Source: Halomonas rhizosphaerae
Lineage (GTDB): Bacteria; Pseudomonadota; Gammaproteobacteria; Pseudomonadales; Halomonadaceae
Direction of reading: 5' to 3'
DNA: 64,000 bases
Assembly (NCBI RefSeq): GCF_030010555.1
Contig: NZ_JASCQP010000011.1
Location: 124,001 to 188,000, forward strand
A model generated the notes under the pieces. That model saw only the letters and a program-made list of their open reading frames with translations, was not told the origin of the DNA and did not search any database. Positions 6,404-64,000 of the stretch are shown here, piece by piece. The translations under genes were made by a program, and so were the position numbers. Each line of letters starts with the position of its first letter. Position 1 is the stretch's first letter.

Positions 6404-10387
<3,984 letters not shown>

Positions 10388-10417
10388 GCGAACAGCGTTG
10401 CCTTCTGCGTGACCTCC

Positions 10418-10435
10418 TGTAGGAGATCGCCTACA
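10418..10435. promoter_or_regulatory. GacA/UvrY-type response-regulator box
   Basis: The palindrome TGTAGGAGATCGCCTACA has the same N6-spaced architecture as the GacA/UvrY/SirA operator (TGTAAG-AGATCT-CTTACA) and differs from it at three of 18 positions. It lies about 180-200 bp upstream of the inferred 5' end of the GGA-rich RNA at 10616, the distance typical for the upstream activating sequence of Pseudomonas rsmZ genes. It also forms an 8-bp hairpin (10416-10437), so a post-eno RNA hairpin is an alternative reading. Confidence 0.6.
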
Positions 10436-10473
10436 GGGTAGCGAAGAGATCCGCCATCCCTGCGTCGGAAAGG

Positions 10474-10503
10474 CCCGACCCTTCACGGGGTCGGGTATTT
10501 TCA
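10474..10503 (+). terminator. Intrinsic terminator after eno
   Basis: An 8-bp perfect stem (CCCGACCC / GGGTCGGG, 10474-10481 with 10488-10495) is followed by a T-rich tail (TATTTTCATTT). It lies 86 bp after the eno stop. Confidence 0.75.
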
Positions 10504-10615
10504 TTTCATTGATTTACAAGGGTTTTTCCCAGACAGCGCTGACAGGGCGGGCCGGGATGTCCCTGGCGGACGCGTTACGGGCGGGGTTGTGCTGCAATGC
10601 GGCTATGCCACACTG

Positions 10616-10791
10616 CACTCGGGATGTGGGAGAGCGGGGATGCTCTTCCGGCAGGATGCAACGGGATGCGTCAAGTGATGCGCTCGGTGCGGCAGGAGGC
10701 CGCTCCCGGGCAGGGAAGGCATCACGGGAGTCGGGCGGAGGGAGCCGCCCGAGGATCGGCTGGGAGCGGGCGGCCTGCGGGCCGCCTTTTT
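10616..10791 (+). ncRNA. Candidate RsmZ/CsrB-family CsrA-sequestering small RNA
   Basis: This stretch has no convincing gene but about a dozen GGA motifs within about 170 nt. Several sit in hairpin loops: loop GGGGAT on an 8-bp stem (10628-10635/10642-10649), loop AGGGAG on an 8-bp stem (10731-10738/10745-10752) and an AGGGAAGG-containing loop closed by CTCCCG/CGGGAG (10703-10730). It ends in a strong terminator (10769-10791). GGA in hairpin loops is the CsrA/RsmA binding signature. In Pseudomonas aeruginosa rsmZ lies next to fdxA, and here the RNA also directly neighbours fdxA. A GacA/UvrY-type box lies upstream at 10418. The 5' end is a guess based on a weak -10-like TATGCC at 10604. csrA itself is at 20684. 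Confidence 0.7.
10769..10791 (+). terminator. Intrinsic terminator of the candidate RsmZ-like RNA
   Basis: GGCGGCC-TGCG-GGCCGCC (10769-10786) is followed by five T (10787-10791). It has no upstream protein gene on the plus strand other than eno, which already has its own terminator, so it implies a separate short transcript. Confidence 0.8.
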
Positions 10792-10828
10792 GCCGAGTGT
10801 TCTCCTTCTTCGCTCAGGGCAGAAACGT

Positions 10829-10860
10829 CGACGCCGGATGTCATGTGACATCCGGCGTCG
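10829..10860 (-). terminator. Terminator after fdxA
   Basis: A perfect 15-bp inverted repeat (10829-10843/10846-10860) lies 23 bp downstream of the fdxA stop. Read on the minus strand it is followed by a short T-rich stretch (CGTTTCT). It could also stop readthrough from the plus-strand RNA. Confidence 0.75.
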
Positions 10861-10883
10861 TCGTGTCCGGCCGTGGCGGCGGT

Positions 10884-11207
10884 TCAGCGCTCGAGCAGTT
10901 CCAGCTTGCCCGGCTTGCCGTCCCACTCCTCGGCATCCTCCGGCGGATCCTTCTTCTCGCTGATATTCGGCCAGACCTCGGCCAGCTCGGCGTTGATCTC
11001 GATGAACGCCTCCTGGCCATCAGGGAGCTCATCCTCCGAGAAGATCGCTTCGGCGGGGCACTCCGGCTCGCACAGGGCGCAGTCGATGCACTCGTCGGGG
11101 TGGATCACCAGGAAGTTGGGGCCTTCGTAGAAGCAGTCCACCGGGCAGACCTCGACACAGTCGGTGTACTTGCACTTGATGCAGTTCTCGGTGACGACGA
11201 ATGTCAT
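10884..11207 (-). CDS. fdxA: Seven-iron ferredoxin (3Fe-4S/4Fe-4S), FdxA type
   Basis: 107-residue low-potential electron carrier that aligns without gaps over its N-terminal half with Azotobacter ferredoxin I. C9, C17 and C50 are the expected 3Fe-4S ligands; C21, C40, C43 and C46 are the expected 4Fe-4S ligands. The extra C12 and C25 of that family are also present. The C-terminal extension ([13 protein letters not shown]) is characteristic. It is transcribed on the minus strand downstream of mutS, separated from it by 163 bp that hold an AT-rich operator-like palindrome, so it probably has its own promoter. A 15-bp hairpin terminator follows. Confidence 0.96.
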
Positions 11208-20683: not shown

Positions 20684-20878
20684 ATGCTCATCCTGACCCG
20701 CCGTGTCGGCGAAACCCTGATGATCGGTGACGACATCACCGTGACCGTCCTTGGCGTCAAGGGCAATCAGGTCCGCATCGGCGTCAATGCCCCGAAGGAT
20801 GTCGCCGTGCATCGCGAGGAGATCTACCAGCGCATCCAGCGCGAGAAGGCCGATTCCGGTCTCGAGAGCGATGACTAG
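20684..20878 (+). CDS. csrA: Carbon storage regulator CsrA (RsmA)
   Basis: 64-residue RNA-binding global regulator that binds GGA motifs in mRNA leaders and is titrated by CsrB/RsmZ-type RNAs. The full family sequence is visible: [18 protein letters not shown], then [18 protein letters not shown] and the basic helix [16 protein letters not shown] lies upstream of the ATG at 20684; this also resembles a CsrA site and would allow autoregulation. The position between lysC/alaS and a tRNA-Ser gene is conserved in gammaproteobacteria. Confidence 0.97.
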
Positions 20879-62377: not shown

Positions 62378-62588
62378 ATCTGGCTCACCTGTAGTGGTTT
62401 TCTGAATATGGTGCTCAATGATTTGCTGATCGTTCACGTAGGAAAGGCCTTGATAAAATTAAAGCCAGTTTCTTTGTAAGATATTTCTGACAACTTTGTA
62501 AGTAGGTTTCTTTTTTCTGTTGATTTTTGCTTGATCATCAGTTTTGGTATATATTGTATGCATATATTAAATAATATAGGGTGATAAT
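62378..62588 (+). other. AT-rich junction and upstream region of the ATPase gene
   Basis: This 211-bp stretch contains no gene. It is rich in A/T (TATATATT, ATATATTAAATAATATA) in sharp contrast to everything to the left. A 9-nt direct repeat CTTTGTAAG occurs twice about 30 nt apart (near 62472 and 62496). Several TTGATT/TATATT-like hexamers could be promoters, but none has clean spacing. A ribosome site (AGGGTGAT) is immediately before the ATG at 62589. An att half-site may be here, but it cannot be proven without the far end of the island. Confidence 0.55.
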
Positions 62589-64000
62589 ATGGGAGATTCT
62601 GGAGGGCAGTTTTTGATAAAAAAGAATCTGAAGCTTGGTGATCTTGATGCGGAAACTGACCAAAGACTTCTGAAAGACTGTTTTTTTGATAAAGGCGACA
62701 TGGAGGTTATAGCTGATACGGAAGAGCCCGAGTCTGTGGTTGTAGGTAGGACGGGGTCTGGAAAAAGTGCCCTTTTGTTAAAATTGGCAATTGAAAATGA
62801 CAAAGCTAGAGTTTTGGATCCAAACGACATATCGATAAAATTTCTTGAAAACTCAGATATAATAAAATTCTTTGAAAGCATTGGTGTTAAGCTGGATCTG
62901 TTTTACAAGCTCTTGTGGAGGCATATTCTGACGATAGAGTTCTTGAAGCTCAGGTATGGATTTAAAGAGGGTGAAAATAATTCTGGGATCCTGCAAAGGC
63001 TTACTGAGTTGGGCGCAAGCAAAGGAAAAAAGAAGGCGATTGAGTATTTTAATAAGTGGAATGATCAGTTTTGGGTGGAGACAGATAAACACCTTAAAGA
63101 AATTGTTGAGAAATTTACAGATGAGGTCAAGGGTGAAATTGGAGTCGGAGTAGGAGGGATTGGTGGGATAAGTGTGGCAGATGTTGAGGGCTTGACCCAA
63201 GAAAGGCGTCATGAAGTAGTTAATAAGGCGAATAGAGTGGTCAGTCAACTTCAGATAAGGAGTTTGTCTGAGGTTATTGATGTTCTTTCAGAAGAATCAT
63301 TTAAAGACTTCCAGCAAAAATATTATATTCTAATTGATAAGCTGGATGAAGACTGGGCGACTACTGAGACGAGGTGTCTTTTTGTCAGGGCGCTTATTGA
63401 AGAAGTAAAGTTTTTTAGAAAATTGAGTAACACAAAAATAGTTGTTGCGCTACGCGAAGATTTGCTTCAAAAAGTTTTTGATATGACACGAGGGTCAGGA
63501 TTTCAACAAGAGAAATATGAATCTTACTTGTACCCGCTTAAATGGGGTAAAGAGGATCTTCGGATTCTTATTGAGAAAAGGGTTTCGGAGGTTTATAAAA
63601 GGCAATATGAGAAGCGTGATGTGAAGTTTGATGAGGTATTTCCATCACCTAAGCAAGGGGTGGTCGCTTTTTCTTTTATGGTTGAAAGAACGCTTTTCAG
63701 GCCGAGAGATATATTGCAGTTTTGTAACGAGTGTTTTGTGGCATCTTATAATAAGCCTAGAGTTAGTTGGCGATCAATAAGGTCTGCAGAGCATAAATAT
63801 TCTCAGAAGAGGCTGCAGTCAATAATAGAAGAATGGGTCGATCATTATCCCTCTGTCAGGTTTGTTCCTGAACTTTTTTATGGGTTGCCGCCTAACTTGA
63901 AGAAAAGCAGTTTTGGGGATAGTAGGATAAATGAGGTGGCTTCTAGGGCGTTTGAGGTTGAAGGTAAGGATGCTTGTATAGAAGCAGCTGAGAAGATGGT
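62589..64000 (+). CDS. P-loop ATPase, Sll1717-like, 3'-truncated by the window
   Basis: At least 470 residues; the gene continues past the window. Walker A GRTGSGKS is at residues 53-60, the Walker B-like ILIDKLDEDW at 247-256, a sensor-like VVALREDL at 285-292 and FRPRDILQFCN at 370-380. Between the ATP motifs is a large helical insert, including a Gly/Val-rich stretch (GVGVGGIGGI, 185-194) that may be a loop or membrane-active segment. The pattern fits P-loop ATPases of the Sll1717 group, related to KAP/STAND-type NTPases; the family call is from memory of motifs. The ATG follows AGGGTGAT and an in-frame stop at 62577. Codon use is AT-rich (AAA, ATA, AGA/AGG) and alien to the flanking core, suggesting transfer. 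Function is unknown; defence is a guess from family habits. Confidence 0.72.
   Translation, partial: MGDSGGQFLIKKNLKLGDLDAETDQRLLKDCFFDKGDMEVIADTEEPESVVVGRTGSGKSALLLKLAIENDKARVLDPNDISIKFLENSDIIKFFESIGVKLDLFYKLLWRHILTIEFLKLRYGFKEGENNSGILQRLTELGASKGKKKAIEYFNKWNDQFWVETDKHLKEIVEKFTDEVKGEIGVGVGGIGGISVADVEGLTQERRHEVVNKANRVVSQLQIRSLSEVIDVLSEESFKDFQQKYYILIDKLDEDWATTETRCLFVRALIEEVKFFRKLSNTKIVVALREDLLQKVFDMTRGSGFQQEKYESYLYPLKWGKEDLRILIEKRVSEVYKRQYEKRDVKFDEVFPSPKQGVVAFSFMVERTLFRPRDILQFCNECFVASYNKPRVSWRSIRSAEHKYSQKRLQSIIEEWVDHYPSVRFVPELFYGLPPNLKKSSFGDSRINEVASRAFEVEGKDACIEAAEKM

Follow-up and report, generated by a model that had tools for sequence, protein, structure and literature searches.

The window, by which we mean the whole 64,000-nucleotide stretch of Halomonas rhizosphaerae DNA analysed here, contains eno (9095..10387, plus strand) and fdxA (10884..11207, minus strand), and within the gap between them lies an unannotated, predicted RsmZ-like small RNA gene of about 170 nt (10620..10791, plus strand), convergent with fdxA, whose product is predicted to sequester CsrA. 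A small RNA of the RsmZ/CsrB type between eno and fdxA had been proposed in a preliminary description of the stretch, and the proposal gains support from conserved GGA motifs and stems, from the fdxA neighbourhood and from a GacA-type box upstream. The 3' end given there agrees with ours, with an intrinsic terminator predicted at 10768..10791 (plus strand) and made of a GC stem at 10768-10787 followed by T5 at 10787-10791. The csrA gene, presumed to encode the protein partner, indeed lies 10 kb away (20684..20878, plus strand) and matches Pfam CsrA. The locus therefore has the features of the Csr/Rsm small RNA class in being non-coding, in ending at an intrinsic terminator and in belonging to a genome that has csrA.

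Predicted structure and GGA motifs

From 5' to 3' on the plus strand, the comparative structure comprises a hairpin with a variable loop (hairpin 1, 10627..10650), a block with CAGGAUG and ACGGGAUG (10652..10668), a two-storey hairpin (hairpin 2, 10675..10725), a hairpin with the loop AGGGAG (hairpin 3, 10731..10752; loop 10739-10744, GGA at 10741) and the terminator, with further GGA motifs in single-stranded linkers. The second of these is the best conserved block of the 5' half, and in it ACGGGAUG is enclosed by a helix of two pairs. The loop region of hairpin 1 reads GGGGAU in this genome, its outer G and T being able to pair, and its GGA is poorly conserved. Hairpin 2 has a covarying stem with the loop AGGAG (10694-10698) and an internal loop with GGGAA (GGA at 10714). 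Three stem loops with GGA had been named previously, and two of them, GGGGAT and AGGGAG, were recovered at hairpins 1 and 3, but the third, AGGGAAGG, is no simple hairpin loop; it forms an asymmetric internal loop beneath the hairpin with the AGGAG loop, which was itself absent from that list.

Covariation was scored on an alignment of 41 non-redundant sequences (A1), taken from 80 after eight of the 88 loci of the genus had been dropped for long insertions or extra length. RNAalifold gave 39 pairs, 21 of them with two-sided changes (shuffled mean 13.4), paired cells amounted to 96.3% against 89.4% in shuffled alignments, and the covariation score was 0.329 against 0.191 for shuffled alignments and 0.076-0.137 for slid partners, all of these scores being somewhat favoured by a consensus structure taken from the same alignment. 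Folding energy alone says little, since the complement strand folds as well as the RNA strand (z of -3.3 and -2.9 respectively, relative to shuffles). At several loci of the genus (L078, L083-L085, L087, L088 and L063) the RNA is enlarged in its 5' part by a long insertion, and the stretches measure 302-331 nt as compared with about 180.

There are 12 GGA motifs in 10616-10792, which bears out the earlier estimate of about a dozen in under 180 nt. Dinucleotide shuffles have a mean of 6.9 and only 6 of 2000 reach 12, a count that by itself is modestly above chance because the stretch is G-rich; elsewhere in the window, on both strands, a density of 12 GGA per 177 nt is found at one place only (35638), inside open reading frames. 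Nine of the 12 are exact in at least 76 of the 88 loci of the genus, and those at 10714 and 10741 are each exact in all 88. At 10753 the motif is exact in 71 and within two bases in 87, at 10629 it is exact in 34, and the weakest, at 10638 in the GGGGAT loop, is exact in eight and within two bases in 53. Several conserved GGA motifs, part of them in hairpin loops, are again what is seen in Csr/Rsm small RNAs. The preliminary description had considered that GGA motifs and stems drifting beside a conserved fdxA would speak against its proposal, and the opposite was observed, in that the stems and most of the GGA motifs persist, with drift in the intervening letters and in parts of the flanks.

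The same stretch might encode a structured small RNA of other function, either a trans-acting RNA of the Hfq type or an element of the eno 3' untranslated region, the GGA motifs then being those of G-rich hairpins. The G-richness that gives shuffles an average of nearly seven GGA would suit this explanation, and stems would be conserved whatever the function. We give it very little weight given that most GGA motifs are kept while neighbouring letters change, and the upstream region and the Pseudomonas loci described below bear on it as well.

Promoter, GacA box and neighbouring terminators

A sigma-70 promoter is predicted at 10587..10614 on the plus strand, with a -35 element TTGTGC (10587-10592), a 16-nt spacer and a -10 element CACACT (10609-10614), for which the majority sequence in relatives is CACAAT. 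A strict consensus promoter scan found no promoter before the RNA; it is from the conserved columns TTGTGC and CACACT that we place the start near 10620, and the start at 10604 in the preliminary description lies some 15 nt upstream of this predicted one.

The preliminary description did not include a GacA (UvrY) box, a palindromic upstream activating sequence, TGTAGGAGATCGCCTACA, that we found about 190 nt upstream of the RNA (10418..10435, centred some 194 nt ahead of the predicted start of transcription). When scored on the 12 defined positions of TGTARG-N6-CYTACA, 46 of the 88 loci of the genus match at all 12, 35 at 11, six at 10 and one at nine. The source genome also has a GacA-type regulator, in the order gacA-uvrC-pgsA as in E. 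coli (uvrC and pgsA by sequence reading). A GacA/UvrY box together with a GacA orthologue is usual for gammaproteobacterial Csr/Rsm small RNAs, although not universal.

Between the box and the RNA promoter lies the predicted stem of the eno terminator (10473..10496, plus strand). Both the box and this terminator, which separates eno from the RNA promoter, argue further against an RNA of other function. The terminator is also relevant to a second alternative, that the gap holds a terminator or repeat-like element between two convergent genes and has no RNA of its own. The convergence of eno and fdxA and the presence of a further inverted repeat at about 10828-10863 would fit such an element, but eno has a predicted terminator of its own, which is followed by a conserved promoter-like block, and the conserved region extends over about 170 nt and shows covariation in several of its helices, so that we regard this alternative as less probable still. 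The inverted repeat in question (10828-10863), located between the RNA and fdxA, is fairly conserved in the genus and is possibly the fdxA terminator.

Distribution in the genus and the family

Searches recovered the RNA from 89 of the 90 genus genomes, from 88 by BLAST with 10560-10800 as the query and from G034 by covariance model (82.6 bits); the only genome without a match, G062, is an assembly that is 72% complete. Conservation is high across the RNA and drops immediately beyond its ends; the upstream box and the eno terminator are conserved blocks as well. At all 88 BLAST loci eno is the upstream neighbour, and 82 of them showed fdxA on the downstream side. For two of the remaining six the sequence stops about 500 bases past eno, and in L083, L084, L085 and L087, all four with the long insertion in the RNA, fdxA was not found within the 1.1-1.4 kb read beyond eno; fdxA adjacency is therefore not universal.

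Open reading frames cross the RNA stretch on both strands, for example one of 83 codons at 10597-10848, but a short protein gene under selection is the least probable explanation of the locus and close to negligible, given the compensatory base-pair changes and the insertions and deletions among relatives, whose lengths are not divisible by three, which also agrees with the earlier claim that no protein gene is present.

A covariance model built from the new RNAs (R1) finds a single strong copy in the source genome, at 175.7 bits, the next match scoring 21.8. In the family, 111 of 151 genomes, from 16 of 24 genera, reach at least 48 bits, and the genomes that come next score at most 31.6 bits, as counted among the matches listed. 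CsrA is encoded in all 25 genomes tested, including G034 and eight of the 16 family genomes that have the RNA and no GacA.

The gap between eno and fdxA holds no such RNA in the eight genomes read from the Salinicola group (g4), where it measures 90-229 bp, in G126 (86 bp) and in G096 (144 bp). The RNA was also not found in the wider eno-fdxA gaps of G214 and G107. Among these genomes GacA is present in g4, G126 and G214, with none in G096 and G107. Among six fdxA loci read in the genus g5, those of G093 and G142 combine a perfect box with 16 GGA in 180 nt adjoining fdxA, and no eno was found within the stretch examined.

Relationship to RsmZ and other Csr/Rsm RNAs

At gathering level, an Rfam search over the window returned three tRNAs only, and no RsmZ, CsrB, CsrC or RsmY. 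Recognition by the models suggested in the preliminary description did not materialise, as the RsmZ model RF00166 gave 12.5 bits where the gathering cut-off is 44, and the CsrB and RsmY models, like that of CsrC, gave no match up to E=10 over 10380-10900. Matches around the RNA at low cut-offs were dismissed as chance, for example those of microRNA models to the inverted repeat at 10814-10877.

We then considered position, using an Rfam scan of 20 named loci, five of which are from Pseudomonas. In all five of these PrrB_RsmZ lies beyond the fdxA stop and on the opposite strand, which is the arrangement of the Halomonas RNA; the other 15 loci, including Stutzerimonas, Atopomonas and at least six Halomonadaceae records, gave no Rfam match. 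The neighbourhood of rsmZ and fdxA that had been stated for P. aeruginosa was thus seen in five other Pseudomonas species, and it appears in a figure legend of PMC4353343. The presence of RsmZ at this same place is a further argument against an RNA of other function. Four of the five Pseudomonas loci have a box that matches at 10-12 of the 12 positions, with its centre 178-183 nt ahead of the RNA start predicted by Rfam, and in the fifth, L153, there was no box at the expected place. The Halomonas RNA likewise is adjacent to and convergent with fdxA and has its box about 180-190 nt before the predicted start.

The R1 model gave at best 23.6 bits on the Pseudomonas RsmZ loci (L187) and at best 31.6 bits among 293 genomes of the order outside the family, where three weak matches (28-32 bits) were dropped as having neither eno nor fdxA within 4-5 kb. 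Given the 12.5 bits of RF00166 and the lack of a strong R1 match outside the family, kinship with RsmZ follows from position, orientation and box and not from sequence; what makes the Halomonas RNA an RsmZ is its position and wiring and not a match to the Rfam model. With RsmZ/PrrB (RF00166) it shares the adjoining and convergent fdxA, the GacA-type palindrome upstream, the many GGA motifs and the intrinsic terminator. It differs in its length of about 170 nt, as compared with about 130 nt in the Rfam scan and 133 in PMC4353343, in the half-sites of the box, which are mostly TGTAGG in the Halomonas genus and TGTAAG in Pseudomonas (the rsmZ box printed in the figure legend of PMC4353343 is TGTAAGCATTCGCTTACT), and in the upstream neighbour, which is eno here and an rpoS-like gene in Pseudomonas, as determined by sequence reading at the two loci read fully (L160 and L205).

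The CsrB and CsrC RNAs, which we take to be Rfam RF00018 and RF00084, have CAGGAUG-like repeats in common with the Halomonas RNA, and they are longer and lie in other genomic places. For these enterobacterial RNAs, the logic of a CsrA sponge and control by BarA-UvrY are also shared (PMC7366521). Several sponge copies are listed for Azotobacter vinelandii (RsmZ1-7, table of PMC7366521) and may be compared with the four units of Larsenimonas described below, which stand head to tail in one gap of genomes where no GacA orthologue was found. Transcription of RsmV and RsmW in P. aeruginosa is reported to be independent of GacS-GacA (PMC7911923), and we infer the same for the RNA of GacA-less relatives. 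RsmV and RsmW stand beside a GacA-driven set, whereas the GacA-less relatives have lost the box of the very RNA that is linked to fdxA.

Other GacA boxes and the search for a second sponge

Five exact GacA boxes were found in the source genome where 0.23 are expected from base composition, and one of them is that of the RNA. With one mismatch allowed there were 15 places and 14 in the control, and therefore only the five exact matches were used. Three of the other four begin about 100-215 bases before GGDEF genes (L093, C42:78770; L092, C26:142821; L091, C26:129212), the three downstream genes matching Pfam GGDEF with E values of 2e-40, 1e-44 and 3e-38, and two of the three have leaders that are GGA-rich by eye. 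A lead, rather than a result, is that GacA may influence cyclic di-GMP by two routes, a direct one and one that passes through the sponge. No second sponge was found in the source genome, the other four exact boxes having no such RNA and at most eight GGA per 180 nt, and a sponge unlike R1 and with no exact box is possible there.

Each of six genomes scanned from the Salinicola group has one to three exact GacA boxes, the control having none, and no convincing GGA-rich RNA was found at these boxes. At L305, L309, L314, L316 and L318 of this group an exact box precedes a conserved open reading frame with MTQSFDV(D/E)SFIRSRKQTR near its start. In G126, exact boxes lie upstream of frames that resemble PAAR and VgrG on sequence reading (L304, L311 and L317), where direct control of type VI secretion by GacA may be possible. 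In the window itself, a one-mismatch box (62475-62492) was observed after a guaA-like gene and before an open-ended NTPase-like frame (62589-63998), which has a weak, below-cut-off match to nSTAND1.

Retention of the RNA where GacA and its box are lost

Genomes fall into two groups when searched with the GacA of the source genome, with E either under 1e-63 or at best 4.8e-26, the best 20 candidates being scored in most genomes; a search with E. coli UvrY agrees with this grouping, the weaker group being at 8e-26 or worse. By this measure 20 of the 151 family genomes have no GacA, and 16 of these 20 carry the RNA. The best box match in 15 of the 16 is only 7-10 of 12, shuffles averaging 8.5, while in GacA-bearing genomes, where 59 of the 95 loci with a strong RNA were examined, 52 match at 11-12 positions and seven at 10. 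The exception is G213, which has a perfect box and no GacA among the best 20 of 53 candidates scored; a recent loss of GacA, an assembly gap or a missed gene could each account for this. Within the genus only one of the 90 genomes, G034, gave no GacA, with an E of 1.1e-19 after each of its 17 candidates had been scored. This genome is 99% complete; its eno-fdxA gap is shortened to 340 bases and its best box score is 8, and the RNA is kept. Overall the box is lost in 16 of the 17 GacA-less genomes with the RNA. PF09984 failed as a marker for GacS, matching 20 of the 151 genomes and not the source genome.

On a tree built quickly from pieces of eno and fdxA, which has many weak forks, excludes G095, G143 and G153 for their short rows and has G034 labelled as GacA-bearing, the GacA label needs two changes, one for a sub-lineage and one for G213, or three with G034. 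The 15 genomes with the RNA in this sub-lineage therefore count as one event, and the association of GacA with the box over 75 related loci (Fisher p ~1e-9) was not used as evidence, since the loci are related and the tree needs few changes. Two separate losses of GacA thus agree in that the box is gone and the RNA stays, and one, G213, goes against them. The new observation is that the RNA outlasts GacA and its box, in one sub-lineage and separately in G034.

Larsenimonas (G119) and a second genome under its genus code, G133, each have four head-to-tail units, matching R1 at 45-87 bits, between eno and fdxA (L227:2560-3900 and L228:2380-3700, minus strand), and a GacA orthologue was not found in either genome. 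A T-run follows the stem of the last unit only, and hence the four may form one long sponge. In the genus g16 (ten genomes: L247-L254, L229 and L231) the core and terminator align well without the box. The palindrome ATCAG-N5-CTGAT precedes the RNA in eight of the ten, is present with one mismatch in another and is absent from G179; it may serve as an operator or may be the RNA's own first hairpin. In g16, and in Larsenimonas as well, the eno terminator is followed by the conserved block CTTGACCC...CCACCAT.

Discussion

Conservation, covariation, neighbourhood, the box and the presence of both GacA and CsrA were computed here, and together they make it very probable that the RNA is an RsmZ-like sponge of the Gac/Rsm (BarA-UvrY/Csr) cascade and the counterpart, by position and wiring, of Pseudomonas rsmZ. 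In the mechanism that we infer, phosphorylated GacA would bind the palindrome at 10418-10435 and activate the sigma-70 promoter about 190 nt downstream, and transcription would give a structured RNA of about 170 nt with its 3' end predicted at 10791. Judging by the family, the GGA motifs in its hairpin loops and single-stranded linkers would bind several CsrA dimers, and CsrA would in this way be titrated and pulled off its target mRNAs.

In Halomonas anticariensis GacS/GacA is reported to control quorum sensing, exopolysaccharide and biofilm, and the table of a 2020 review gives the small RNA of this species as "Unknown" (PMC7366521). The binding of CsrA has been modelled for H. hydrothermalis, with sponge RNAs left to future models (PMC12889724), and Rsm RNAs have been predicted in PMC5568370, whose main text does not name Halomonas. 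In a limited search of the Halomonas literature on CsrA, CsrB, GacA, rsmZ and small RNA transcriptomes we found no report of this RNA, and an earlier prediction, for example by Kulkarni et al. 2006, may exist. The RNA is probably the missing sponge of the Halomonas Gac/Rsm pathway, ordinary in kind and missed in this window by the RsmZ model of Rfam, and we propose it, with its promoter, box and structure, as the RNA between GacA and CsrA in Halomonas.

For the GacA-less Halomonadaceae, we suggest tentatively, and with somewhat more doubt than confidence, that the sponge has been rewired and not lost, with the box gone and the CsrA-binding core and terminator still under selection, the four Larsenimonas units forming one long multivalent transcript and ATCAG-N5-CTGAT in g16 being the site of a replacement regulator. 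These relatives are a natural test of the use of a Csr sponge without its usual activator and, if the suggestion is true, they would hold a Csr sponge that has outlived its master switch.
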